Source of the DNA: Selenomonadaceae bacterium
GTDB lineage: Bacteria; Bacillota; Negativicutes; Selenomonadales; Selenomonadaceae
Direction of reading: 5' to 3'
Assembly: GCA_017529935.1 (NCBI GenBank)
Contig: JAFXNB010000012.1
Coordinates: 1 to 43,121 of the forward strand
Length of the DNA: 43,121 nt
The notes under the pieces: generated by a model
Database searches by the model: none
What the model saw: the letters and a program-made list of their open reading frames with translations, nothing else
Told to the model about the DNA's origin: nothing
In this document: positions 1,773-31,038 of the stretch, in pieces
Layout of the letters: the number at the start of each line of letters is the position of its first letter
Position numbering within the stretch: position 1 is the first letter of the stretch
Program-made: the position numbers and the translations under genes

Positions 1773-1951
1773 TCCCGTTAATCCCAATTAAAAACATAAC
1801 GCCACAGTGCCGAAGGGTTGTCCCCGCAACTTGGTCGGCGGCAAATTTCAGCGATGACCACCAAACATCGCGCGGAGAAGGTGAGATATGAATAATTGAC
1901 GCAGGACTCATACATAAGCCAAGACGGAGGCGCGAGCTTCCGCCTTTTTTG
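1773..1951 (+). promoter_or_regulatory. Cobalamin riboswitch with built-in terminator
   Basis: The leader carries the conserved blocks of the cobalamin riboswitch in order. First is a GTCCCCGCAACT core (1820-1831), matching the family's GCCCCCGCAACTGT. Then come GACCACC (1856-1862) and GGAGAAGG (1874-1881) in place of GCCACTG and GGGAAGG. Last is AGCCAAGACGGAGGC (1917-1931), a variant of the B12 box AGYCAGGAGACCTGCC. The last block overlaps a stem AGGCG/CGCCT (1928-1932, 1941-1945) followed by six T. This suggests that ligand binding to the B12 box decides whether the terminator forms, so cobalamin would turn expression down. The gene controlled starts at 1978. Identification is by eye; a covariance-model match would settle the class. 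Confidence 0.8.
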
Positions 1952-1977
1952 TTATAGAAATTTCGGAGGAGATAAAA

Positions 1978-3039
1978 ATGTTTGAGCGGAAAAATACGCG
2001 GCAAATCAGCGTTGGGAAAATAAAAATCGGCGGCGGTGCTCCGATAAGTATTCAATCGATGACGAACACCAAAACACACGACGCGGCGGCAACAGTTGAA
2101 CAAATTCAGCGGCTGGCGGCGGCGGGTTGCGATATTGTGCGCGTTGCCGTGCCCGACATGGCGGCGGCAAAAACTTTGGGCAAAATAATTTCGGCGGTGG
2201 CGGTGCCGATTATCGCGGATATTCATTTTGATTACAGACTCGCGCTTGAATCGATAGCCCAAGGCGTGGCGGCGTTGCGATTAAATCCGGGCAATATCGG
2301 CGGGGCGGCTCATGTTCGCGAAGTTGTAAAATCTGCGCGGGCGGCGAAAGTTCCGATAAGAATCGGCGTGAACGCTGGCTCGCTGAGCAGAAAACTTTTA
2401 CAGAAATACGGCGGCGCGACGCCCGAAGCTTTGGTCGAGTCGGCTTTGGAGCACGTGGAAATTTTGGAGGCGGAAGATTTTTTCGACATAAAAATTTCGC
2501 TAAAGGCGCACGACGTTCCGCTGACTTTGGCGGCGTATCGTTTGATGAGCGAGAAAAAAAATTACCCGCTCCATTTGGGCATAACGGAGGCGGGCACAGT
2601 CAACACGGGCGTGATAAAATCGGCGGTGGGAATCGGCGCGTTGTTGGCGGAGGGAATCGGCGACACAATCCGCGTTTCGCTGACGGGCGACCCCGTTGCC
2701 GAAGTTAAGGTTGCCAAAGAAATTTTAAAATCGCTGGGGCTTCGTGACGGCGGAGTAACTTTGATAGCCTGTCCTACTTGCGGGCGAACTAAAATTGATT
2801 TGCCCAAAATTGCCGCGCAGGTCGAGGAGAAAATTTCTTCCATAGAAACAAATTTGACGGTCGCGGTTATGGGCTGCGTCGTCAACGGACCTGGCGAGGC
2901 GCGAACTGCTGACGTTGGCATTGCGGGCGCGGACGGCGAGGGAATTATTTTCCGCAAAGGCGTAATCGTTCGCAAAGTTCCCGAATCCGAACTTGTCGCC
3001 GAACTTTTCAAGGAGATTGATAAAATCTTGGAAGCGTAA
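1978..3039 (+). CDS. ispG: 4-hydroxy-3-methylbut-2-enyl diphosphate synthase (IspG/GcpE)
   Basis: The 353-residue protein is IspG, the [4Fe-4S] enzyme that reductively converts MEcPP to HMBPP in the methylerythritol phosphate route to isoprenoids. A TIM-barrel N-terminal part (QSMTNTKTHD, about 26-35; RLNPGNIG, 101-108) is followed by the cluster-binding C-terminal part with Cys265 and Cys268 in CPTCGR, Cys300 in MGCVVNGPGEA and the cluster-ligand Glu307. Length matches the short bacterial form. GGAGG lies 8 nt before the ATG. It stands alone, not beside dxr and rseP as in many Firmicutes. Its leader is a cobalamin riboswitch, which is unusual because IspG itself uses no cobalamin. Confidence 0.96.
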   Translation: MFERKNTRQISVGKIKIGGGAPISIQSMTNTKTHDAAATVEQIQRLAAAGCDIVRVAVPDMAAAKTLGKIISAVAVPIIADIHFDYRLALESIAQGVAALRLNPGNIGGAAHVREVVKSARAAKVPIRIGVNAGSLSRKLLQKYGGATPEALVESALEHVEILEAEDFFDIKISLKAHDVPLTLAAYRLMSEKKNYPLHLGITEAGTVNTGVIKSAVGIGALLAEGIGDTIRVSLTGDPVAEVKVAKEILKSLGLRDGGVTLIACPTCGRTKIDLPKIAAQVEEKISSIETNLTVAVMGCVVNGPGEARTADVGIAGADGEGIIFRKGVIVRKVPESELVAELFKEIDKILEA

Positions 3040-3103
3040 CTAATTTCATAACGCGGAATAAAATTCATGACGTGGACGGAAAAATCAACTTGCCGCCAAA
3101 ATA

Positions 3104-4506
<1,403 letters not shown>

Positions 4507-11960: not shown

Positions 11961-13544
11961 ATGCGTCGAAAGTCAAAGGCGGCAAGCAAGCTGATTACAA
12001 AAAAATTTCGTGGAGGGATGAGGTTGGCGTTTTTTTTGATAGTGCCGAGCGTCATGATAATCAGTATCTTGCTGATACACGCGCTGGCGAATCGGCTTGG
12101 GTTGCGAATTTTTTACCCGACGCTAATCGCGGTGGCGGTGGTGTCGATTATGGTTGACTTCGTGGCGGCGACCGTCGCGCCCGCAATCGGTCGAGAATTT
12201 TTGTTGTGGTTGGGGCTTATGATTTTGGCGGCGTCGTTCCTGCTCACCTTGGCGAACAGATTTTTGTTGAAGAGGCAGCAAGCCGAGGAAAAAAAGTTCG
12301 ACGCGGAAGTCAAAGCGGCTTACGAGGCGTCGAAAGATGAAGCTTTTTTGAATCCGGCGGCGAAACCTGCTACGATTGACAAATTCGAGTGGGGCGACGA
12401 AAAAAATTTATTCGAGGTGCCGCCCGCTTACAACGAATCGACAACCGACGCCGATAAAAATTCCGACGCTGATAAAATTTCCGACGCCGATAAAAATTCC
12501 GACGCTGATAAAATTTCCGACGCCGATAAAAATTCTGCCGACGCTGATAAAAATTCTGCCGCTGATAAAATTTCTGTCGCCGATAAAAATTCCGACGCAG
12601 ATAAAAATTCTGTCGCCGATAAAAATTTTGTCGCCGATAAAAATTCCGACGCAGATAAAAATTCTGTCGCCGATAAAAATTCCGACGCAGATAAAAATTC
12701 TGTCGCCGATAAAAATTCCGACGCCGATAAAAATTCCGACGCCGATAAAAATTCCGACGCAGATAAAAATTCTGTCGCCGATAAAAATTCTGCTGTTGAG
12801 GAGGAGCTTAGCGGAAATCCCGCGTTACCCGAAAACTTCCCGCTGGAAAAAATTTTCAAGCCGCTACCCGAAGTAAAACCTAAAGAGGCGGACAAACCTA
12901 TCAAGTTGGAAGAAAAGCCCAAGGCAACAGAAGAATTCCCGCTCGAAGAAGTTTTCAAGCCGCTGTCCAAGGTGAAGCCCGAACCAGTCAAGCACTTCGA
13001 CGCGCCGAAAAAAATCGAACGCACGGAGCTTTTCCCGTTGCAGGAAGTTTTTCGCCCGCTGTCGACGATGGATTTGGACAAGCTGGAAGAAATCACGCAG
13101 GAAGAAAAATCTTTGCCGCACGAAGAGGAAACCAATCCCGAAGAAAAAATCGACACGCTCGACGATTTGCTGGACAAGGCATATGCCGAACGCGACAAAG
13201 GGCACGTGTGGCAGGCGATACAAACTTATAAAAAGGCGTTGGAACGCTACCGCAACGACGAATACGCGCCGTTCGTGGCGATTGACTTGGGCAATATCTA
13301 CAAGGAACAGGCACTTTACTCCGACGCGATAAAAATTTACGAGGAAGCTCTGACGTTGCCCGCCGTCAAGCGCAACGCCTCAACCAGAAAAGAATTCGCG
13401 GGCACGCTGGAATATCTGCGCGTCGTTCACAACGTCCTAATCAAAAATCGTGCGCTGTCGACGCCGTTCAGCCAGCTATCAAAGGAAATTCTGCAGGAGA
13501 TAGACACCGAATTAAAAAAAGTGCAACTTAGCTCCGCGCAGTAA
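11961..13544 (+). CDS. Membrane protein with hexapeptide repeats and C-terminal TPR domain
   Basis: The 527-residue protein has three parts. The N-terminus (about 20-110) has about three membrane spans. The middle (163-277) is a low-complexity tract of 19 units of DADKNS or variants. The C-terminal third has a TPR-like region ([18 protein letters not shown] and [18 protein letters not shown], about 410-465). Between repeat tract and TPR, a motif recurs three times: [20 protein letters not shown] and [10 protein letters not shown]. These look like short linear binding motifs. AAGGA lies 10 nt before the ATG at 11961; another ATG at 11957 opens a different, shorter frame. The PRC-barrel gene follows 35 nt later, so they probably form an operon. 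The function is unknown; a membrane scaffold is my inference. Confidence 0.8.
12447..12791 (+). repeat. 18-nt coding tandem repeat (19 units)
   Basis: Nineteen units of about GACGCCGATAAAAATTCC encode D/V-A-D-K-N/I-S; one extra codon breaks the period once. The unit is a multiple of three, so copy-number change would alter protein length without a frameshift. Nucleotide identity between units is high, with a GAC/GTC (Asp/Val) alternation, which suggests recent slippage or recombination. Confidence 0.9.
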
Positions 13545-13579: not shown

Positions 13580-14689
13580 ATGAAAAAAAGTGTTGAAATT
13601 CTGGGCTTGCCGATTATCAGCATAACCGAAGGGCGCGAGCTTGGCGTCAGTAAATCGCTTTTAATCGACGCCAAAAACGGCGTGGTCGCGGCGATAACGA
13701 TAGAGGACGACGATTGGTATCGCGGCGTCAAGCTCATTCCTTACGAGGCGATTATCGCAATCGGCGAGGACGCGGTGACAATCACGCACAGCGAAAACAT
13801 TTTGAACTTGGAAGAGGCGGGCGATTATGAACGACTGCTGGTTGAAAATATTCGCGTCATCGGCACCAAGGCGATAACCAAGACGGGGCGCATTCAAGGC
13901 AAGGTCACGGAAGTTTTTATCGGCGCGGGCGGCAGGATTGAGAAATGCGAAATCACGAAGCCCGACGGCATGATTGACGCGGTCAACGCCGAGCAAATTT
14001 CTATTTTCGGCAAGCAAGTCACGGTTATAGACGTCGACGAGGAAAAAAAAAATAGTTTGACGGAGCAACCCGCGTTCGAGCCGGCGTTCCAAGCTTATTC
14101 TGAAGAACCGGAGCCTGAAGTTTGGACGCCGCCCGTTCAAGTCGAGGAGCAAAAGGAAATCGAACCGCCGAGCGCAGACTTGCCGCAGCCGGAAGAAGTT
14201 CAGCCGATAACCGAATTGACGTTACCGCCGCAAGAAGAGCCGGTGACGACGCCAGAAACTCAAGCGGCACTGGAAGAAACCATGACGCCCGAACCCGTCA
14301 AGGAGACAGTCGAACAGCCCGTAGTTGAGGAGCCGATTGTAGAAGAGCCAGTTGTCGAGGAGCCGCCCGTCGTCGAGGAAAAAGTTTCGGAAGAAGATAA
14401 AAAAATCGCGACGATGACGCAACAGGCAGAAGATTTAAAAGCGGCGTTGCAGAAGGCGCGGGCAAATAAGCAGGCGGAACAAAAGCCGATGACTTCGCAG
14501 AAAAAGCAAGTGGAAAAGGCAGTCGACGAACGCCGCCGCAGAGTTTTGCTCGGCAAACACGCAACCAAAACAATCACGGCGGAAAGCGGCACGGTCGTCG
14601 TAGAAGCGGGCGCGGAAGTCACGGAAGAAGTCCTTCAACGCGCACGCCTCTCAAATAAATTTATCGAACTGTCAATGAACGTTCAATAA
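13580..14689 (+). CDS. PRC-barrel domain protein with acidic linker and C-terminal tail
   Basis: The 369-residue protein starts with two PRC-barrel-like units (about 1-80 and 85-155; for example LGLPIISITEGRELGVSKSLLID and GTKAITKTGRIQGKVTEVFI). Such beta-barrels occur in RimM, in photosynthetic reaction centre H subunits and in sporulation proteins. A long Pro/Glu-rich, probably disordered segment follows (about 165-275, with EEPVVEEPPVVEE), then a Lys/Arg-rich helix (about 280-330) and a small C-terminal block (KTITAESGTVVVEAGAEV). GGAGG lies 7 nt before the ATG. It sits behind the TPR membrane protein and before a shared terminator, so the two may interact. The role is unknown. Confidence 0.8.
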   Translation: MKKSVEILGLPIISITEGRELGVSKSLLIDAKNGVVAAITIEDDDWYRGVKLIPYEAIIAIGEDAVTITHSENILNLEEAGDYERLLVENIRVIGTKAITKTGRIQGKVTEVFIGAGGRIEKCEITKPDGMIDAVNAEQISIFGKQVTVIDVDEEKKNSLTEQPAFEPAFQAYSEEPEPEVWTPPVQVEEQKEIEPPSADLPQPEEVQPITELTLPPQEEPVTTPETQAALEETMTPEPVKETVEQPVVEEPIVEEPVVEEPPVVEEKVSEEDKKIATMTQQAEDLKAALQKARANKQAEQKPMTSQKKQVEKAVDERRRRVLLGKHATKTITAESGTVVVEAGAEVTEEVLQRARLSNKFIELSMNVQ

Positions 14690-14710
14690 AAGTTTCACGC
14701 AACAAAAAAT

Positions 14711-14738
14711 CCCGACAGCTTGTCGGGAAATTTTTTTT
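14711..14738. terminator. Bidirectional terminator between PRC-barrel gene and maf
   Basis: CCCGAC (14711-14716) pairs with GTCGGG (14722-14727) and is followed by AAATTTTTTTT on plus. On the minus strand A/T-rich sequence also follows, and maf ends at 14737 right against it. Confidence 0.85.
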
Positions 14739-15294
14739 ATAATGCAATGCCCGCCGCTTGCGCCAATTTCCGCAGCCTATAAACGGGCAAGCCGACGACG
14801 TTCGACCAGTCGCCGTGAATTTTTTCTATAAATTTCGTCGCGCCGCCCTGCAGTGCATACGAGCCAGATTTATCGAGCGGTTCGCCCGTGGCAACGTAGT
14901 CGTGAATTTCCTGCGCCGTCATGGAGCCGAAGTAAACTTCTGTGACCTCCGCCGCCGTGAAAATTTTGCCGCCCGCGCAGATTGCCAAGCCCGTTATGAC
15001 TTCGTGACATTTGCCCGAAAGCCGCGCCAACATTTTTTCAGCACCGTGCACGCCGTCGGGTTTACCGAAAATTTCGCCGTCGAGCACAACGATTGTATCC
15101 GCGCCAATGACGACCGCGTCGGGGTGTTTGGCGGCGATTGAACTTGCCTTGCGTTTTGCGTTTTCCACCGCCAAAGTTTTCGGGCTGTCGGAGAGCTGAA
15201 CTTCTTCAGCGTCGCTGACTTCCACGACAAAATTATCACACAGCTTGCGGAGGAGTTCATGCCTGCGCGGCGAGCCTGAAGCTAAAATTACCAT
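14737..15294 (-). CDS. maf: Maf-like nucleoside triphosphate pyrophosphatase
   Basis: Maf proteins hydrolyse non-canonical or pyrimidine NTPs to monophosphates and so clean the nucleotide pool; overexpression blocks septation in Bacillus. The 185-residue protein has the N-terminal ASGSPRR (5-11), Asp66 in GADTIVV and the late motif DKSGSYALQG of the dTTP/UTP-type group. GGAGG precedes the ATG. It is the last gene of the rtcB-brnT-antitoxin run, 15 nt after the second antitoxin-like gene. The region just before its start repeats the leader of that gene. Confidence 0.93.
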   Translation of the reverse strand: MVILASGSPRRHELLRKLCDNFVVEVSDAEEVQLSDSPKTLAVENAKRKASSIAAKHPDAVVIGADTIVVLDGEIFGKPDGVHGAEKMLARLSGKCHEVITGLAICAGGKIFTAAEVTEVYFGSMTAQEIHDYVATGEPLDKSGSYALQGGATKFIEKIHGDWSNVVGLPVYRLRKLAQAAGIAL

Positions 15295-15309
15295 TGATAA
15301 ACCTCCAAA

Positions 15310-15540
15310 TTAGCCGACATCGCGCTTCTTGAAGCGTTCGGGGAATTCTTTACGCCACATTTCATTTGTAATGTAGCCTGTTCTGTATTTGCGAATCAGG
15401 TAGCGAATTTCTTCGTGTTCCTTTTTGCTCATGGGCGGGCAGTCCTCATCATAGACAATCGGGCGACCTTTGAGCGCGGCGATTTCAGCTTTCTCCTCCG
15501 CCGTCAACGGTTCACCGACCCTCCTCGTGTAATACTCCAT
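15310..15540 (-). CDS. BrnA-like antitoxin, second tandem copy
   Basis: The 76-residue product is a close paralogue of the gene just upstream (15556-15795). They share VGEPL(T/S)AEEKAEIAALKGRPIV, DEDC and the ending F-x-x-RDVG. The N-terminal LTAEEKAEIAALKG resembles the start of BrnA-type antitoxins, but the C-terminus (RKEFPERFKKRDVG) lacks the usual ribbon-helix-helix pattern. Leader and coding DNA are both duplicated: GGCTAATTTGGAGG precedes this gene and maf alike. It probably arose by tandem duplication and may neutralise the BrnT toxin or an unlinked one. Family assignment is by resemblance only. Confidence 0.65.
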   Translation of the reverse strand: MEYYTRRVGEPLTAEEKAEIAALKGRPIVYDEDCPPMSKKEHEEIRYLIRKYRTGYITNEMWRKEFPERFKKRDVG

Positions 15541-23735: not shown

Positions 23736-23908
23736 CGCAAAAGTTCTCTTAAACGGCTTGCGGGAGAAATTTTTTGCTTTGAACTGTAAAATCTTAATCA
23801 GAAGGCAAAAAAATTAGCCCGAAAGTGATTTTGGGGCGTTGAAAGTGATTTTGGACGTTTGAAACGGAATTTGAGCGTTGAAAATGGTTTTTGGCGTGAT
23901 TTTTGGGC

Positions 23909-24032
23909 GTGATTTACGTTTTCCATGTACATGGAATTTGTATCGCGTTGTGACGCGGCTTTTTCGATACCCCCTAAAATTTGGGCTGATTTTGAGCTGT
24001 GATTTACATTTTCCACGTACATGGAATTTGTA
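23909..24032. repeat. Pair of 34-nt direct repeats, each with a palindrome
   Basis: Two copies of a 34-nt sequence (23909-23942 and 23999-24032) differ at only two positions and start exactly 90 bp apart. Each contains a palindrome: a perfect TTCCATGTACATGGAA at 23921-23936 and a near copy with one change at 24011-24026. The stretch 23819-23918 beside them is made of degenerate units of about 20 nt around CGTTGAAA-TGATTTTGG. A 74-codon frame on the minus strand has no ribosome binding site and only mirrors the repeats. The block fills the gap between the permease operon and the RTX gene and may hold operator sites. Confidence 0.7.
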
Positions 24033-24080: not shown

Positions 24081-24737
24081 TTAGCGATTCTTTTCTGTCA
24101 AATGAAATATGCCGTAGACCAGATACGAGAGCGCGAGGTAGATAATCATGCCGCCGATAATCGTAATCATCGGTTGCATTGTGCGCGAGGCAATGTTGTT
24201 TATCACGCGCGTCAAGTCGGTTATCGTGACGTAGCCGACGACGCTCGTCCATTGAATCAGATTTACGACCGTCGATTGATAGACGGGCTTGGCGATACGC
24301 GCCAGTTGCGGGAGCGTGACGAGCTTAAACGCTTGCAACTTTGAAAAGCCCAACGTCCGCGCCGCTTCCAGTTGCCCCTTGTCGAGTGCCATTAACGCCG
24401 AACGCAAAAGTTCCGCCACGTGCGCCGCCGTGTGCATGGCGAACGTTACCACCGCCACAAATACGGGCGGCATTCCCGTGCGCGCCAACACGCCGTAAAA
24501 CAGCAACATCAACAGCATTAGCACCGGCGAGCCGCGAATTATCGAAATATAAACCTGCGCGGCGACTTTTAGCGGTTTGAACTTCCCGACGCGGAAAAAG
24601 CACAGCAACGAGCCGAAGATTGTGCCGAGCAGGAGTGCCAGCGCGGAAATTTGCACCGTCACCCACAGCCCGTTCAATATCGTCAGCCAGCTGCCGTCCT
24701 TTACAAAAATTTTATAGATTAAATCCGTGAATTCCAT
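24081..24737 (-). CDS. Polar amino acid type ABC transporter permease
   Basis: The 218-residue inner-membrane protein is a permease of the His/Glu/Gln type (BPD_transp_1). It has about five membrane spans, the N-terminal NGLWVTVQISALALLLG (22-38) and the cytoplasmic EAA loop EAARTLGFSKLQAF (124-137) that contacts the ATPase. Its start overlaps the stop of the preceding SBP gene by 1 nt, so it is co-translated with the sixth binding protein. It is the last gene before a terminator, and no ATPase gene follows. The ATP-binding subunit must be encoded elsewhere or be shared with another transporter. Although the family mainly moves amino acids, the unusual binding proteins in this operon leave the substrate open. 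Confidence 0.92.
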   Translation of the reverse strand: MEFTDLIYKIFVKDGSWLTILNGLWVTVQISALALLLGTIFGSLLCFFRVGKFKPLKVAAQVYISIIRGSPVLMLLMLLFYGVLARTGMPPVFVAVVTFAMHTAAHVAELLRSALMALDKGQLEAARTLGFSKLQAFKLVTLPQLARIAKPVYQSTVVNLIQWTSVVGYVTITDLTRVINNIASRTMQPMITIIGGMIIYLALSYLVYGIFHLTEKNR

Positions 24738-25591
24738 TACTTTTTCTCTTCGTCTTTAAAAACCATGTGAACGATTTTATCTTTAAAATAGGGCGCACTC
24801 AAAATTATGCCGCTGGGCTTGTCGCTGTCGGCGGGGATAACTTCGCTGACGGGGACAATCGCCCAAAATACAACGTCGACTTGCTTTGACGTTAAAGCCG
24901 CCGCGCGTGCGCCGCTTTCAATCTCAACCAGCTCAATATTTTTCAACATGCGATTGCTAATTTCGGCGAGCACTGCCGTATTAAAACCTGCGGGCATGCC
25001 GTTCGCGCTAACGAAATCCAAAGGCGGCAAGTCGCCCGTCACCGCAACTTTTATCGTCTCCGCGCTGTCAAAATGCGGAATCTCAACGGCGGGCGGGTCG
25101 TTTTTCGCGGCAATATCGGTGATATATTCTTTCGTCAAGCGGTCAAGCGTGCCGTCGTTTTGCATTTCATTTATAACCTTGTCCAGCGAATCTTTTAGCT
25201 CGGTTTCGTCATCGCGCAGGGCAAAGCAGAACGAATCAATAAACTCCAGCGAATGATCTTTCAGCACTTGATAGCGCGGGTCTTTGGCTATCATGTAGCG
25301 CGCCACGCTCCGATACGTGCTTATCTCGTCTATCTGCTTCGTCTGCAACGCCATTTGCATTGCGTTCAGGTTGTCAAAGAAAACGGGCTTGTGCGAAGAA
25401 ATTTTTACGTCGAGCGTGTCCTCAACTTTCTTCATGAATTCGCCGAAATTTTCTTCGCTGGCATTCAGGCGGGTTATCATACCGAGTTTAATTTTGCTGG
25501 CGTCGTCGGAAGCTTTTTTCTCCTCTCCGCCGCCGCAACCCGTCATTAATATCAGCGAACAAATCATCAGCAAGGCAAAAATTTTTTTCAT
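24737..25591 (-). CDS. Circularly permuted SBP_bac_3 lipoprotein, copy 6
   Basis: The 284-residue lipoprotein has a lipobox (ILMTGC, Cys19). The lobe with the usual C-terminal features comes first: KLGMITRLNASE, a D-E-I-S-T-Y-R-S-V region and NEMQNDGTLDRLTKEYI. After a PPAVEIP linker comes the lobe that normally opens the family: VAVTGDLPPLDFV, GFNTAVLAEI, GARAAALTSKQVDVVFW and SAPYFKD. Thus lobe 2 precedes lobe 1. The family Arg in the T-x-x-R segment ahead of the PY-F motif is missing, whereas GARAAAL has an invariant Arg. GGAG precedes the ATG. It is directly coupled to the permease gene, so it is the likeliest true partner of that permease. Confidence 0.88.
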   Translation of the reverse strand: MKKIFALLMICSLILMTGCGGGEEKKASDDASKIKLGMITRLNASEENFGEFMKKVEDTLDVKISSHKPVFFDNLNAMQMALQTKQIDEISTYRSVARYMIAKDPRYQVLKDHSLEFIDSFCFALRDDETELKDSLDKVINEMQNDGTLDRLTKEYITDIAAKNDPPAVEIPHFDSAETIKVAVTGDLPPLDFVSANGMPAGFNTAVLAEISNRMLKNIELVEIESGARAAALTSKQVDVVFWAIVPVSEVIPADSDKPSGIILSAPYFKDKIVHMVFKDEEKK

Positions 25592-25624
25592 TCAATCATC
25601 TCCTTAGAGCCGTCAGTCAATTTT

Positions 25625-26431
25625 TTACTCGCGCAATTTCAACAGAACTAATCTATCCACGAAGTAAGGTTTGGTCAGAATCGCGCCTTCGGGCTTGTCA
25701 AAATCGGGCGACGGAAAATCTGTGCCTTCAGGGGCAACAGACCAAAATATAACGTCGACTTTGCCGGAAGCCAGAGCTGCCGCCCGCGCCCCGCTGTCGA
25801 CTTGCACGAGAACGAAATTTTTCCCGGTTCGTTCGCTGATTTCGGAGAGCAAAGCGGCATTGAAACCTGCGGGCACTCCGTCGGGGCTAATGTAATCGAG
25901 TAAGGGCAAGTCGCCCGTCACGGCGATTTTAACCATGGTGCCGTTGTAGAATTCGGGCAGTTTGATGAGGGACGGCTCTTGCTGGAAATGAATTTCGGCA
26001 ATATATTTCTTCACGAGAGTAGCAAGCGTGCCGTCCACAGTCATTTCGGAAATCGCGTTGTCGAATTCATTTTTCAGCGCAACATCTTCCTCGCGCATGG
26101 CACAACAGAAAACGTCGTTCAGCGGCGGAGAAAGTACTTCGTACTCAAATTCGGGATTTTTGTCTACGAAATATTTCGCGACGGATTCGTAAGCACTCAC
26201 GCAATCGATTTGTCCCGATTGGAGAGCTGCAATTATTGAATTCACGTTCGAGAAGAAAATGCACTCGTAAGTTACACCTTCGTTGCGCCTTTTCAAGAAC
26301 TCATTGTAATATCGGTTAAATTCTTCCTCGCTGACGTTCGCGTATTGAATCACGCCGAGTCGCTTAACATTATCCGAGCCGCAACCTGCCAGCAAAATTG
26401 CCGCGCAGAGTAAAGCTAAAAACTTTTTCAT
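25625..26431 (-). CDS. Circularly permuted SBP_bac_3 lipoprotein, copy 5 (most diverged)
   Basis: The 268-residue lipoprotein (lipobox LLAGC, Cys17) shows the same swapped order: RLGVIQYANVSEEEF and AISEMTVDGTLATLVKKYI first, then VAVTGDLPLLDYISPDG and GARAAALASGKVDVIFW. It is the most diverged of the six, with a shorter linker after the lipid anchor and CCAMREEDVALK in place of CFAVRKDD. Its ATG overlaps the stop of copy 4 by ATGA (26428-26431), so it depends on translation of that gene. Divergence of the pocket region suggests a different ligand from copies 1 and 2; this is inference. Confidence 0.87.
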   Translation of the reverse strand: MKKFLALLCAAILLAGCGSDNVKRLGVIQYANVSEEEFNRYYNEFLKRRNEGVTYECIFFSNVNSIIAALQSGQIDCVSAYESVAKYFVDKNPEFEYEVLSPPLNDVFCCAMREEDVALKNEFDNAISEMTVDGTLATLVKKYIAEIHFQQEPSLIKLPEFYNGTMVKIAVTGDLPLLDYISPDGVPAGFNAALLSEISERTGKNFVLVQVDSGARAAALASGKVDVIFWSVAPEGTDFPSPDFDKPEGAILTKPYFVDRLVLLKLRE

Positions 26432-27309
26432 TTCTTAAGCTTGAGGTGTTCAACGTCATCTTTGAAGTAGGGCTCACTAAGTTCGACGCCTTCGGGCTTG
26501 TCAATGTCTCTGGGCATTTTGTCGCCGTTTGGCACGACAACCCAAAAGATAACGTCAATCTGTTTGGAAGTGAGAGCCGCAGCACGCGCGCCGCTGTCGA
26601 TGTCGACAATCTCAATATTTTTTCCGCTACGTTTTGCGATTTCGGCGAGGAGCGCGGTATTGAAGCCGGCGGCCTTTCCGTCAGCACTTACATAATCGAG
26701 CGGCGGCAAGTCGCCAGTGACGCCAACTTTAATAGTCTGTGCGCCGTCGGTCATGGGGATTTCAACTGCGGGCGGAGCTTGCCCGTTATCAACTTTGATG
26801 ATGTAATCTTCGGCGAGTTTTTCGAGTGAGCCGTCAGCTTGCATTTCGTTGATAGCCTTGTCGAGGTCGGCTTTGAGGGCGGTGTCTTCCTTGCGCACGG
26901 CGAAGCAGAAATTGTCGGGGAGATTTTTGAGCGTCAAGTCGCTGACGATTTCAAACTTGTCGTTTTGGGCGACGAGGTACTTGGCAACGCTCTTGTACAG
27001 GCTGATTTGGTCGACGCTACCCGATTCAATGCCCATCTGCAGGAGTTGCAAGTTGTCGTAATAAGTTGGCACGTAATGGGTAACCTTGACGCCGGAATCC
27101 TCTTGCACCTTCATAAGAATATCTTCCATCTTCTGTTCGGTGGCGTTAAGGTGGCTTATCATGCCGAGCTTAATATCACCGGCGGGAGCTTCAGCGGCAG
27201 GCTTATCCGCAGGTTTATCGGCAGGCTTATCGCCGCCGCCGCAACCCGTGAACAATGCGCCCGCCATTACGCAGGACAGGAGAACCGTAGCAATCTTTTT
27301 GAGTTTCAT
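26428..27309 (-). CDS. Circularly permuted SBP_bac_3 lipoprotein, copy 4
   Basis: This 293-residue lipoprotein (lipobox LFTGC, Cys23) has an Ala/Pro/Lys linker with a DKPADKPADKPA repeat between anchor and domain. Lobe 2 comes first (KLGMISHLNATEQKMEDI, QISLYKSVAKYL, NEMQADGSLEKLAEDYI) and lobe 1 last (VGVTGDLPPLDYVSADGKAA, GARAAALTSKQIDVIFW, EPYFKDDVEHL). GGAGG precedes the ATG. It ends in a 4-bp overlap with copy 5. The C-terminal 120 residues match copies 1 and 2 much more closely than the first lobe does, as if the halves evolve at different rates. Confidence 0.88.
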   Translation of the reverse strand: MKLKKIATVLLSCVMAGALFTGCGGGDKPADKPADKPAAEAPAGDIKLGMISHLNATEQKMEDILMKVQEDSGVKVTHYVPTYYDNLQLLQMGIESGSVDQISLYKSVAKYLVAQNDKFEIVSDLTLKNLPDNFCFAVRKEDTALKADLDKAINEMQADGSLEKLAEDYIIKVDNGQAPPAVEIPMTDGAQTIKVGVTGDLPPLDYVSADGKAAGFNTALLAEIAKRSGKNIEIVDIDSGARAAALTSKQIDVIFWVVVPNGDKMPRDIDKPEGVELSEPYFKDDVEHLKLKK

Positions 27310-27330
27310 TTTTGAAAACCTCCATTAAAA

Positions 27331-28203
27331 TTATTTGTTAGCTTTAAGTTTGATAACAGCAACGTTGTCTTTGAAGTAGGGCGTGCTCAGCTCCAAACCT
27401 TCGGGCTTGTCGAGGTCGGCGGGCATGTCGTTATTGCCGAAGGGCACGACAACCCAAAAGACCACGTCAATAAATTTGGAGTTCAAAGCCGAGGCACGCG
27501 CGCCGCCTTCTATCTGCACCGGCTCCACGTTCTTTCCGAGACGTTTAGCAATTTCGGCGAGCATGGCGGTATTAAATCCGGCTGGCGAATTATCGGGCAG
27601 AATCAAATCGAGCGGCGGCAAGTCACCCGTCACACCAACTTTAATAGTCTCCGCGCCGTCAATTTTGGGGATTTCGACTTTCGGCGGCGTTTCTCCTTTG
27701 TTGACGTTGGTCACGTAATCATTTATTAGCTTATCTAGTGAGCCGTCCGCCTTCATCTCGCCGATAACTTTGTCGAGGTCGTCTTTAAGCGCGGCATCGT
27801 CCTTCCTAACCGCGAAGCAGAAAGCGTCCGTGATTTTGTTAAGCGCGTCGTTCGGGACGATTTCAAACTTGTCATTTTGGGCGACGACGTAATTGGCGAC
27901 GCTGTTGTAAGTGCTAATCGCTTCGATTTGCCCCGATTCAAGCCCCATTTGCATTGCTTTGAAGCTGTCGTAGAATTTGGGCTGGTGCGTCTGCCCTGTG
28001 ACTCCGACATTTTCCGCGAACTTGTTGAGGGCTTCGCCGAAAGTTTTTTCATCGGTATTAAGGCGCGTTATTGTACCCAGCTTGAGTTCAGAAGCAGAAA
28101 AATTATTGTTCGGTTTATCGGCGGCAGATTTATCAGCAGTCCCGCCGCCGCAACCGGTCATAAGCAACACCGCCGCGCACATTCCCGCTAAAAATTTTTT
28201 CAT
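27331..28203 (-). CDS. Circularly permuted SBP_bac_3 lipoprotein, copy 3
   Basis: This 290-residue lipoprotein (lipobox LLMTGC, Cys18) keeps the swapped lobe order: KLGTITRLNTDEKTF, AISTYNSVANYVVAQND and GEMKADGSLDKLINDYV, then VGVTGDLPPLDLILPDN, GARASALNSKFIDVVFW and STPYFKD. Its lobe 1 differs from its neighbours at the usual ligand loop (LILPDNSPAG for YVSADGKAAG), which may change specificity. AAGGTG precedes the ATG and overlaps the stop codon of copy 2, giving translational coupling. Its leader is the same as that of copy 2, which marks tandem duplication. Confidence 0.88.
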   Translation of the reverse strand: MKKFLAGMCAAVLLMTGCGGGTADKSAADKPNNNFSASELKLGTITRLNTDEKTFGEALNKFAENVGVTGQTHQPKFYDSFKAMQMGLESGQIEAISTYNSVANYVVAQNDKFEIVPNDALNKITDAFCFAVRKDDAALKDDLDKVIGEMKADGSLDKLINDYVTNVNKGETPPKVEIPKIDGAETIKVGVTGDLPPLDLILPDNSPAGFNTAMLAEIAKRLGKNVEPVQIEGGARASALNSKFIDVVFWVVVPFGNNDMPADLDKPEGLELSTPYFKDNVAVIKLKANK

Positions 28204-28212
28204 TGTATCACC

Positions 28213-29061
28213 TTATTTCTTTAGTTCAAGATGAGAAATTTCGTCTTTGAAGTAGGGCGCGCTAAGTTCGACGCCTTCGGGCGTATCAATGTCCGCGGGT
28301 AAACTTTCGCCTATTGGAATAATCGCCCAAAAGATAACGTCAATCTGTTTGGAAGTGAGAGCCGTAGCACGCGCACCGCTGTCAATGTCGATGACTTCAA
28401 TATTTTTGCCGCTACGTTTAGCGACTTCAGCGAGCATGGCGGTATTGAAGCCGGCGGCTTTTCCGTCAGCACTTACATAATCGAGCGGCGGCAAGTCACC
28501 CGTCACGCCAACTTTAATAGTTTCCGCGCCGTCAGTCATGGGGATTTCAATCGCGGGCGGAGCTTCTCCCTTCTTAACGTCAGTGATGTACTCTTTAACG
28601 AGCTTATCAAGCGTGCCGTCCGATTTCATTTCGCCGATAACTTTATCCAAATCAGCTTTAAGCGCGGCGTCATCTTTGCGCACAGCCAAGCAGAACGAAT
28701 CCGCGAAAACTTTTATAGACTCGCCCGCCGCAACCTCGTATTTGTCGTTGTTGGCGAGCAGATAATTGGCGACGCTATCATAAAGGCTAATCTCGTCGAC
28801 GCCGCCCGATTCAACGCCCATCTGCATGAGTTGCAAGTTGTCGTAGTAAGTGATTGTATAATTCGCAAGATTGATTTTGGCTTTTTCGAGGAACTTTTTA
28901 TAAATTTCGTCCATCTTCTTTTCGGTGGCGTTAAGGTGAGTAATCATGCCGAGCTTGACTTCATTGGGCTGAGCGTCCTTTTTGGTTTCGGAACCGCTGT
29001 CGCCGCCGCAACCTGTCATAAGCAACACCGCCGCGCAGATTCCCGCCAAAAATTTTTTCAT
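28213..29061 (-). CDS. Circularly permuted SBP_bac_3 lipoprotein, copy 2
   Basis: This 282-residue lipoprotein shows the domain swap most clearly. Residues 1-18 are the signal with lipobox LLMTGC. Residues 35-160 match lobe 2 plus the last helices of a normal binding protein (YYDNLQLMQMGVESGGVDEI; AVRKDDAALKADLDKVIGEM; SDGTLDKLVKEY). Residues 161-180 form a linker. Residues 181-282 match lobe 1 (VGVTGDLPPLDYV; GFNTAMLAEVAKRSGKN; QIDVIFWAIIP; SAPYFKD). The chain ends where a normal protein would cross into lobe 2. The 3' 150 bp is almost identical to copy 1, a sign of recent duplication or gene conversion. AAGGTG overlaps the copy 1 stop codon. Confidence 0.9.
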   Translation of the reverse strand: MKKFLAGICAAVLLMTGCGGDSGSETKKDAQPNEVKLGMITHLNATEKKMDEIYKKFLEKAKINLANYTITYYDNLQLMQMGVESGGVDEISLYDSVANYLLANNDKYEVAAGESIKVFADSFCLAVRKDDAALKADLDKVIGEMKSDGTLDKLVKEYITDVKKGEAPPAIEIPMTDGAETIKVGVTGDLPPLDYVSADGKAAGFNTAMLAEVAKRSGKNIEVIDIDSGARATALTSKQIDVIFWAIIPIGESLPADIDTPEGVELSAPYFKDEISHLELKK

Positions 29062-29070
29062 TGTATCACC

Positions 29071-29931
29071 TTATTTCTTGAGTTCAAGATGAGAAATTTC
29101 GTCTTTGAAGTAGGGCGCGCTAAGTTCGACGCCTTCGGGCGTATCAATGTCCGCAGGTAAACTTTCGCCTATTGGAATAATCGCCCAAAAGATAACGTCA
29201 ATCTGTTTGGAAGTGAGAGCCACCGCACGTGCGCCGCTGTCTATGTTGACGATTTCGATATTTTTGCCGAGCCGTTTAGCGACTTCAGCGAGCATGGCGG
29301 TATTGAAGCCGGCGGCTTTTCCGTCAGCACTTACATAATCGAGCGGCGGTAAATCGCCCGTCACGCCGATTTTAATTGTCTCCGCGCCGTCGAATTTCGG
29401 AATGTCAATGGCGGGCGGAGATTCTCCCTTATCAACGTCGATAATGTACTTTTTAACGAGATTATCAAGCGTGCCGTCCGATTTCATTTCGCCGATAACC
29501 GCGTCCAAAGCAATTTTCAGCGCGGAGTCGTCCTTGCGCACGGCCAAGCAGAAGTTGTCTTCCAGTCCGCTAATCCAATCGACTTTTGCAACTTCATAGC
29601 GGTTGTTGTTGGCAAGCAGATAATTAGCGACGCAATTATAAACGCTGATTTGGTCGACGTTGCCCGCCTCAAGCCCCATTTGCATAAGGTTTAAGTTATC
29701 GTAGAAAACGGGCACATGATTAACAACTTTGGCGCGCGACTTCTCTTGAACTTTGAACAGATATTCTTCCATCTGTTTTTCGCTGGCGTTAAGGTGGCTA
29801 ATCATGCCGAGCTTAATTATCGTGCCCTGCGAATCGGGTTCTTTAGTATCGTTGCCGCCGGAACCGCCGCCGCAACCTGTCATTAAAAGTCCCGCCGCGC
29901 AGATTCCCGCCAAAAATTTTTTTAATCTCAA
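29071..29931 (-). CDS. Circularly permuted SBP_bac_3 lipoprotein, copy 1
   Basis: The first of the six paralogues (286 residues, lipobox LLMTGC, Cys20) begins with TTG at 29931. Its ribosome binding site AAGGAG touches the mbl stop codon, so it may be translated from the mbl transcript. Lobe 2 leads (KLGMISHLNASEKQM, FYDNLNLMQMGLEAG, GEMKSDGTLDNLVKKYI) and lobe 1 ends the chain (IGVTGDLPPLDYVSADG, GARAVALTSKQIDVIFW). Its C-terminal half is nearly identical to copy 2 in protein and DNA. No separate promoter is evident in the 14 bp between mbl and this gene. Confidence 0.88.
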   Translation of the reverse strand: MRLKKFLAGICAAGLLMTGCGGGSGGNDTKEPDSQGTIIKLGMISHLNASEKQMEEYLFKVQEKSRAKVVNHVPVFYDNLNLMQMGLEAGNVDQISVYNCVANYLLANNNRYEVAKVDWISGLEDNFCLAVRKDDSALKIALDAVIGEMKSDGTLDNLVKKYIIDVDKGESPPAIDIPKFDGAETIKIGVTGDLPPLDYVSADGKAAGFNTAMLAEVAKRLGKNIEIVNIDSGARAVALTSKQIDVIFWAIIPIGESLPADIDTPEGVELSAPYFKDEISHLELKK

Positions 29932-29945
29932 AAGAAAATCACTCC

Positions 29946-30935
29946 TTAAAGTTTTTTATTAAATTCAATCGCCTTGCCGGTGCCGATAGCCACGCAACTC
30001 AACGGGTCGTCGGCTAGCATGGCAGGGATATTTGTCTCCTTGCGAATCAAATCCGCCAAGCCGTAGAGCATAGCCCCGCCACCCGTCAAAACTATTCCGT
30101 GATCCATAATATCGGCGGCGAGTTCGGGCGGTGTTCGCTCCAAAACATTTTTAACGCACGTGACAATATTTTCAACGGAATCGTGCAGGGCTTCAGCAAT
30201 TTCGTCCGAGCTGACGTTTATATTTTTCGGCAAGCCGCTCACGACGTCGCGCCCACGCACGCTGATAGTTTCCTTTCTCGCGCCGGGATATGCCGCGCCG
30301 ACTTTGACTTTGATATTTTCGGCGGTGCGTTCGCCTATCATCAAGTTGTATTCTTTTTTTATGTAAAATTCTATATCGCTGTCGAATTTGTCGCCCGCCA
30401 CGCGCAAACTTTCTCCGCAGACAATGCCGCCCAAGGAGATAACTGCAACGTCGCAGGTGCCGCCGCCAATGTCTACAATCATTGAACCCATCGGCTCGGA
30501 AATATCTATGCCCGCGCCCAACGCCGCCGCTATCGGCTCCTCAATTAAATCTGTCCGCTTAGCTCCCGCCTGTTCAGCCGCCTCTTGAACCGCGCGTTTT
30601 TCCACGTCGTTGACACCCGTCGGCACGCATATCATCACTTTTGGGCGAAACAGAAACGACCGCCCGATAACTTTTTCTAGGAAATGGCGAATCATTGATT
30701 CTGTCATCTCAAAATCGGCAATGACGCCGTCGCGCAATGGTCGAATCGCAATTATATTTCCGGGCGTGCGTCCTATCATGTCGCGCGCCTCTTGCCCTAT
30801 CGCCAAAATTTTGTCGTTGTCTTTATCGATTGCGACGACCGACGGCTCACGCAGAACTATGCCCTTGCCCTTGACGTAAACCAAAATATTTGCCGTGCCC
30901 AAATCTATCCCGACGCTCATTGACATCCCAAACAA
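29946..30935 (-). CDS. mbl: Rod shape-determining protein, Mbl/MreB actin homologue
   Basis: This protein of about 330 residues is a bacterial actin of the MreB family, most like Mbl, which polymerises under the membrane and guides side-wall synthesis. Seen are the phosphate-1 loop GIDLGTANILVYVKGKGIVL, the phosphate-2 loop VDIGGGTCDVAVI and the adenosine motif LTGGGAMLYGL. The frame is open to 31034, but the family starts at MFG..; a TTG at 30935 (M-F-G-M-S-M-S) has AAAGGAG 9 nt upstream and fits homologues. A promoter lies at 30991-31019. The next gene is the first of six SBP lipoproteins, 14 bp downstream. mreC and mreD are not in the window. Confidence 0.93.
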   Translation of the reverse strand: MFGMSMSVGIDLGTANILVYVKGKGIVLREPSVVAIDKDNDKILAIGQEARDMIGRTPGNIIAIRPLRDGVIADFEMTESMIRHFLEKVIGRSFLFRPKVMICVPTGVNDVEKRAVQEAAEQAGAKRTDLIEEPIAAALGAGIDISEPMGSMIVDIGGGTCDVAVISLGGIVCGESLRVAGDKFDSDIEFYIKKEYNLMIGERTAENIKVKVGAAYPGARKETISVRGRDVVSGLPKNINVSSDEIAEALHDSVENIVTCVKNVLERTPPELAADIMDHGIVLTGGGAMLYGLADLIRKETNIPAMLADDPLSCVAIGTGKAIEFNKKL

Positions 30936-30963
30936 ATTGCAAAACTCCTTTCTGGCAATTCGC

Positions 30964-30990
30964 AAAAAAAATCCCCGCGAAACCGCGAAG
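30964..30990 (-). terminator. Terminator of the M23 peptidase transcript, overlapping the mbl start region
   Basis: On the minus strand CTTCGCG (30984-30990) pairs with CGCGGGG (30973-30979) around a 4-nt loop, followed by ATTTTTTTT. It directly follows the -10 box of the mbl promoter. Confidence 0.7.
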
Positions 30991-31019
30991 ATTTTATCAT
31001 GCTTTATTTTCATTGACAA
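30991..31019 (-). promoter_or_regulatory. Promoter of mbl
   Basis: On the minus strand TTGTCA (31014-31019) and TAAAAT (30991-30996) are 17 bp apart. RNA would start inside the terminator stem at 30973-30990, so mbl transcripts begin with part of that hairpin. Confidence 0.7.
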
Positions 31020-31038
31020 GCGCAGGGCGGGCAATTAA

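Follow-up and report, generated by a model that had tools for sequence, protein, structure and literature searches.

How could a single permease serve six receptors when no ATPase is encoded beside it? This question is raised by a tight operon in a contig from a Selenomonadaceae bacterium of the rumen (JAFXNB010000012.1, positions 1 to 43,121; we will call this 43,121-nucleotide stretch the window). The genome (G000) is a metagenome-assembled genome (MAG) and is 83% complete. On the minus strand, positions 24081–29931 hold six SBP_bac_3 (PF00497) genes followed by one BPD_transp_1 permease gene, as judged from open reading frames and Pfam profiles, which confirms the arrangement described in the original prediction. 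We propose that the operon very probably encodes the outer parts of one ATP-binding cassette (ABC) importer of the polar-amino-acid (PAAT) class, with six circularly permuted receptors, one permease, and an ATPase that is supplied in trans from another contig (C25).

In order of transcription, the receptors lie at 29931–29071 (receptor 1, with a TTG start), 29061–28213, 28203–27331, 27309–26428, 26431–25625, and 25591–24737 (receptor 6), and the permease lies at 24737–24081. The gene junctions are +9, +9, +21, −4 (ATGA), +33, and −1 (TAATG) bp. So the predicted gaps of 9–33 bp are correct, as is one 4-bp overlap, while the last junction is a 1-bp overlap and not a 4-bp one. All six receptors have a lipobox (TGC or AGC, and then G; LMTGCGG in receptor 1), which is a lipoprotein signal.

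All six receptors match PF00497 with 62–72 bits (the cut-off is 26.4), and in all six, the match is split and inverted: positions 1–64 of the profile match near the C-terminus and positions 75–131 match near the N-terminus. In other words, none of them has the lobe 1–lobe 2–lobe 1 chain order of the type II receptors in this family. In receptor 2, for instance, PF00497 1–64 is found at residues 182–245 and the C-terminal part of the fold is found at residues 66–159. Amino acid-binding proteins of known structure align as two separate halves whose order is swapped: residues 139–230 of 4zv1 align to residues 66–158 of receptor 2, and residues 11–86 of 4zv1 align to residues 181–257. In terms of a canonical receptor, the N-terminal half of receptor 2 (amino acids 35–178; 28528–28959) comprises lobe 2 and the helices at the C-terminal end of lobe 1, and the C-terminal half (amino acids 179–282; 28216–28527) comprises the N-terminal part of lobe 1. 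If the halves are rejoined in the canonical order, then there is a single continuous match to PF00497 1–131 and to whole PDB chains. The original prediction did not notice the permutation.

The inverted order is not peculiar to this operon. We built a hidden Markov model (HMM) from four canonical binding proteins of the same genome (on contig C44) and considered the relatives with two matched halves. All 230 have the inverted order (229 directly, and one after a signal-peptide match was removed), and they span Selenomonadaceae, Synergistales, and Clostridia. (Our first count included 45 apparently canonical cases, which were due to matches in signal peptides; only one was left after masking.) Furthermore, an AlphaFold2 model of receptor 2, based on 103 aligned sequences, is two-lobed (pLDDT 90.8, pTM 0.85), and its elements run from lobe 2 through the C-terminal helices to the start of lobe 1. 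Given the swapped matches, the inverted order, and the order of elements in the model, we conclude that all six receptors are predicted circular permutants of type II binding proteins, cut near the hinge. Lone permuted receptors are also found in this genome (on contigs C74, C115, and C193), and other single-gene permuted forms are found at loci L105 and L106. We also noticed a 739-amino-acid fusion on contig C84 (L006, 3263–5482), in which the receptor halves follow each other as 2-1-2-1 and then give way to a permease domain; a permutation that arose by duplication could have passed through such a form.

The permease (24081–24737) has an intact EAA loop (EAARTLGFSKLQAFKLVTLPQ in its sequence), and it matches PF00528 (56 bits) as well as a model of the PAAT class (TIGR01726 HEQRo_perm_3TM, 72.3 bits with a cut-off of 42.2). 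It is 85–95% identical to the permeases of closer relatives within the genus. Some members of the polar-amino-acid class are established to have homodimeric permeases. The permease likely works as a homodimer as well, which is the simplest reading because there is just one permease gene.

As to the ATPase, we found none in the list of open reading frames for the window, and none on contig C93 among the ATPase matches listed for the genome. The prediction that there is no ATPase thus holds for the operon and for the window. It does not hold for the transporter: an orthologous ATPase lies alone on another contig of the same genome (C25, 9974–11086). Its motifs are intact, including Walker A (GGSGCGKS), the signature (LSGGQQQR), Walker B (ILFDEP), and the His loop. 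It is 94% identical to the copy in a sister genome (G086) and 83–88% identical to most of the copies that are adjacent to the permease in other genomes. It appears to be a GlnQ/HisP-type protein: its best models are TcyN, EhuA, and GlnQ, with scores below their equivalog cut-offs. The best match to the core of a relative's ATPase in a fold search was 4yms, the ATPase of an amino acid transporter (56% identity).

Within the genus, the permease is present in 46 of 60 genomes, and we located the ATPase orthologue in relation to it in those 46. The two genes lie no more than 200 bp apart in 27 genomes and 1–1.6 kb apart in 3; the ATPase is unlinked in 11 (including the window's genome) and was not found in 5. 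Because the ATPase gene directly follows the permease in 27 of the 46 genomes, comparison of these sequences indicates that the gene moved away from the operon in the window's lineage. The displaced ATPase has different neighbours in G000 and G086, in G125, and in G140, so this probably happened more than once. We also considered that the missing ATPase might be due to an error in binning the MAG. This is excluded: the orphan ATPase has the same position in G086, and in G125, the ATPase and the operon are on one contig, 143 kb apart. In one relative (L014), a gene for a 508-amino-acid protein (13828–15354) is inserted between the permease and the ATPase, which is a possible step towards displacement.

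We checked whether the arrangement is conserved in related genomes, as the original prediction suggested. We found comparable arrays, with 1–9 receptors and a permease, at 40 loci including the window, which is far beyond chance. The usual order in relatives is mreB, then the receptors (mostly 2–6), then the permease, and then the ATPase. That six receptors feed one channel, which was one of the predicted possibilities, is supported by this conserved gene order, by the EAA loop of the permease, and by the largely orthologous positions of the receptors in different genomes. Receptor 6 is the most conserved across genomes and receptor 5 is the most divergent. This orthology of positions implies that the paralogues are old and are not redundant copies.

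The two halves of the receptors are not equally conserved. Among pairs of receptors from the window, the lobe-2 half is 33–64% identical (about 45%), while the lobe-1 half is 51–94% identical (about 65%). The lobe-1 half is the more conserved in all 15 pairs from the window and in all but one pair elsewhere, and every array shows the same asymmetry on average. Trees of the halves suggest local gene conversion between the C-terminal halves of receptors 1 and 2.

The ligand site has also changed. In an alignment of receptor 2, the carboxylate-binding arginine of the TxxR motif is replaced by threonine, and the aspartate of the amino-binding pocket is replaced by Tyr100, which is at least 90% conserved among 103 relatives. 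Asp189, Asp194, Asn220, Arg231, Phe244, and Trp245, which are all in the C-terminal half, are invariant across these 103 sequences. Because the canonical arginine and aspartate contacts are replaced, the putative ligands are probably not bound as standard α-amino acids.

From the computed domain order, the conserved array, the orthology and motifs of the ATPase, and the greater conservation of lobe 1, we infer how ligand capture, docking, and ATPase-driven import would work. Six lipid-anchored receptors, of largely separate and ancient orthologous lines, would share one permease, presumably a homodimer. Each receptor chain would begin with lobe 2, pass back through the helices at the C-terminal end of lobe 1, and finish with the part of lobe 1 that is N-terminal in canonical receptors; the lipid anchor would therefore be joined to lobe 2 instead of lobe 1. 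The variable lobe 2 would capture a different ligand in each receptor, and the common lobe 1 would dock on the single permease. A common dock and a variable ligand lobe would explain why the lobes differ in conservation. Import would be driven by the ATPase from C25.

Several observations weigh against our proposal. Foldseek and VIA-align give only Z ~11 and TM ~0.4 for the receptor model. A permutation predicts such low scores: both tools follow the order of the sequence, and given the resemblance between the two lobes, lobe 2 is probably paired with lobe 1. The evidence for permutation is the sequence order and the model's own order of elements, and these Z and TM values are not a direct topological superposition. 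Also, 8 of the 40 loci, including the window, show no ATPase in the DNA that we examined. As the genome is an incomplete MAG, a second ATPase could be missing from it, and a general amino acid ATPase on contig C149, which is 50% identical to the C84 ATPase, could also serve. Finally, our canonical control for the asymmetry of the lobes is a single operon.

One alternative is that the importer is powered by an ATPase with several client transporters, for instance the GlnQ-like protein on C149, instead of by the C25 protein. It is established that some ATPases, such as MsmX, are shared (PMC11466899), and the C149 protein (L103, 2639–3385) is a plain amino acid-type ATPase of 248 amino acids that stands alone. 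However, it is the C25 protein that is orthologous to the ATPase encoded beside this permease in most relatives. Also, the genome has another operon with several receptors and no ATPase gene next to them, consisting of four canonical SBP_bac_3 receptors in tandem and one permease (L001, on contig C44, 853–5015), and C149 more likely serves that one. We therefore consider a shared ATPase to be quite unlikely. We think it very unlikely that the receptors are scavengers or sensors and that the lone permease is a relic, with no transport at all, as the original prediction had considered. No ATPase is beside the permease in the window, at L008, or at L012, and the amino acid-binding contacts of the receptors are replaced. 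But the permease is closely similar to those of closer relatives and keeps its EAA loop; the same genome has kept an orthologous ATPase with complete motifs, even if displaced; and relatives retain receptors, permease, and ATPase side by side.

Another explanation is that the permutation is only apparent, and that halves from neighbouring receptors pair to form domain-swapped heterodimeric binding units. If one reads through the stop codons, then the C-terminal half of one gene and the N-terminal half of the next do match the whole PF00497 profile. This seems inconsistent with the presence of both halves in each chain, which is modelled confidently as a two-lobed protein, and with the permuted receptors that are encoded as single genes elsewhere. 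We consider it highly improbable, and we prefer the six-receptor importer with its ATPase in trans.

The ATPases that accompany these arrays have an unusual tail. They have about 370 amino acids, of which about 130 lie beyond the ABC domain. The tail matches HATPase_c_2 (PF13581) in 23 of 29 members (E values up to 0.05, with a best value of 6.6e-7), with the individual matches shown being below the gathering score. A single RsbW protein, used as the query, also finds the tail, and the same HMM finds stand-alone RsbW genes. A model of the tail (pLDDT mostly ~90) has the order strand-helix-helix-strand-strand-helix-strand-strand, which is the known order of strands and helices in RsbW and SpoIIAB. 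The profile matches and the model both point to a HATPase_c_2 fold. A Foldseek search with the whole ATPase, and not with the tail alone, gave only ABC domains among the matches listed. Most of the kinase's ATP-binding signature is gone from the tail: the glutamate is kept, the N-box asparagine is replaced by tyrosine or isoleucine, and DxGxG is absent. The tail is probably not a kinase, because the N-box asparagine and DxGxG are absent.

Tailed ATPases are rare in the phylum, with a match in 8 of 398 genomes. In the Synergistales family that includes locus L073, 27 of 61 genomes have a match, at a threshold which also admits plain RsbW domains. Among 22 genomes of the Synergistales group with a strong match to the tail, 12 have a gene for a SpoIIE phosphatase within 10 kb. 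Random placement would give 0.46 such genomes, with a maximum of 6 in a million draws, although the relatedness of these genomes makes the evidence look more independent than it is. At L073, a SpoIIE gene comes first, followed by RsbW, STAS, five receptors, the permease, and the ATPase. In the window's genome, the C115 receptor is followed by a protein with a STAS domain, and the C84 transporter is followed by a SpoIIE gene. Specifically, at C115 (L003, 6165–8200), the permuted receptor gene precedes a phosphatidylglycerol-lysyltransferase-like domain that is fused to the STAS domain, and similar pairs of receptor and STAS are found at L061 and L064. Downstream of the C84 fusion is an ATPase of the same tailed type along with a convergent Cache-HAMP-SpoIIE gene. 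And at L110 (G426:C20, 8609–11359), a 916-amino-acid protein ends in a tailed ATPase, with a SpoIIE phosphatase gene (1921–4098) a few genes away.

The linkage of the tailed ATPase to SpoIIE hints at signalling. We speculate, tentatively and at rather less than even odds, that the transporter is a multi-input transceptor. The permuted receptors might signal to the cytoplasm, by way of the importer, which of six ligands are bound, and the pseudo-RsbW tail might there bind or release partners of the STAS (anti-anti-sigma) or SpoIIE type, which would couple uptake to partner switching. The window's operon has no SpoIIE, RsbW, or STAS neighbour, so we offer this coupling as a hypothesis and not as a finding.

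How does this transporter compare to known systems? It shares homologous receptor halves, a permease subfamily, and a homologous ATPase core with PAAT-class importers such as HisJ/ArgT-HisQMP, ArtPQ, and GlnHPQ. It differs from them in having six receptors, which are permuted and have replaced ligand contacts, and in having a longer ATPase, with an extra C-terminal domain, that is encoded elsewhere. That domain resembles the anti-sigma kinases RsbW and SpoIIAB, except for the missing N-box asparagine and DxGxG. The regulatory tails that are known from the ATPases of ABC importers consist of TOBE, NIL, and CBS domains (PMC11466899).

A natural circular permutant was described previously in Treponema: Tp0684 (TpMglB-2) is a lipoprotein receptor of an ABC importer, for which a "type Ic" class was proposed, and its authors considered a link between permutation and lipid anchoring (PMC4990184). 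Tp0684 is a type I sugar-binding protein whose permutation point lies inside the N lobe and which needs a fourth crossover (PMC4990184). In contrast, the halves of our receptors match type II amino acid receptors (SBP_bac_3), not the type I sugar-receptor fold, and they are cut near the hinge. In our literature search for permuted ABC receptors, whose coverage excluded most subscription journals, Tp0684 was the sole natural case among the papers listed. For neither the permuted type II receptor nor the RsbW-like tail of the ATPase did we find an earlier report in the literature searched, and both look new.

The original prediction also described the arrangement as unusual. The use of multiple receptors is less so. 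In Pseudomonas aeruginosa, the paralogous receptors DppA1–A5 broaden the range of one importer, DppBCDF (PMC4206461); these are dipeptide receptors from another family, with no permutation reported, and they do not form one permuted array. GlnPQ from Lactococcus lactis has tandem substrate-binding domains, or more than one SBP_bac_3-type domain per amino acid importer (PMC8025302). Those domains have the canonical form and belong to the same chain as the permease, while the window's receptors are separate lipoproteins, and the permuted form that is fused to a permease is on C84. Other importers with several receptors were described by Thomas 2010, as cited in PMC7170509.

Just upstream of receptor 1, by 14 bp and on the same strand, is an MreB-like gene (29946–31034; PF06723, 483 bits), so the transcript may extend beyond 29931. 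It is preceded by further closely spaced genes on the same strand, up to about 36.1 kb. Across the 40 loci, mreB is directly before the receptors in 21, an adjacency that is conserved in relatives. A scan with Rfam found no riboswitch or other family near the operon, and just a tRNA in the window. A scan for terminators near the permease found no minus-strand site just downstream, and the counts were not above those in shuffled sequence. Downstream of the permease (23890–24032) are two 53-nt repeats around a palindrome (TTCCATGTACATGGAA); the genome contains six exact copies of the 24-nt core, compared with none in a reversed control. Elsewhere in the window, the gene at 11961–13544 contains a low-complexity stretch of repeated units.

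For hinge motion in proteins and for the design of biosensors, type II binding proteins serve as a standard model. Since the same genome also encodes canonical homologues, this large family of natural permutants makes it possible to test what the order of the lobes and the anchored lobe contribute to docking and transport. It also means that profile-based annotation captures the permuted receptors only as half matches. And given a degenerate anti-sigma-kinase domain on the ATPase, along with its linkage to SpoIIE, RsbW, and STAS genes, a link between nutrient import and partner switching is directly testable.

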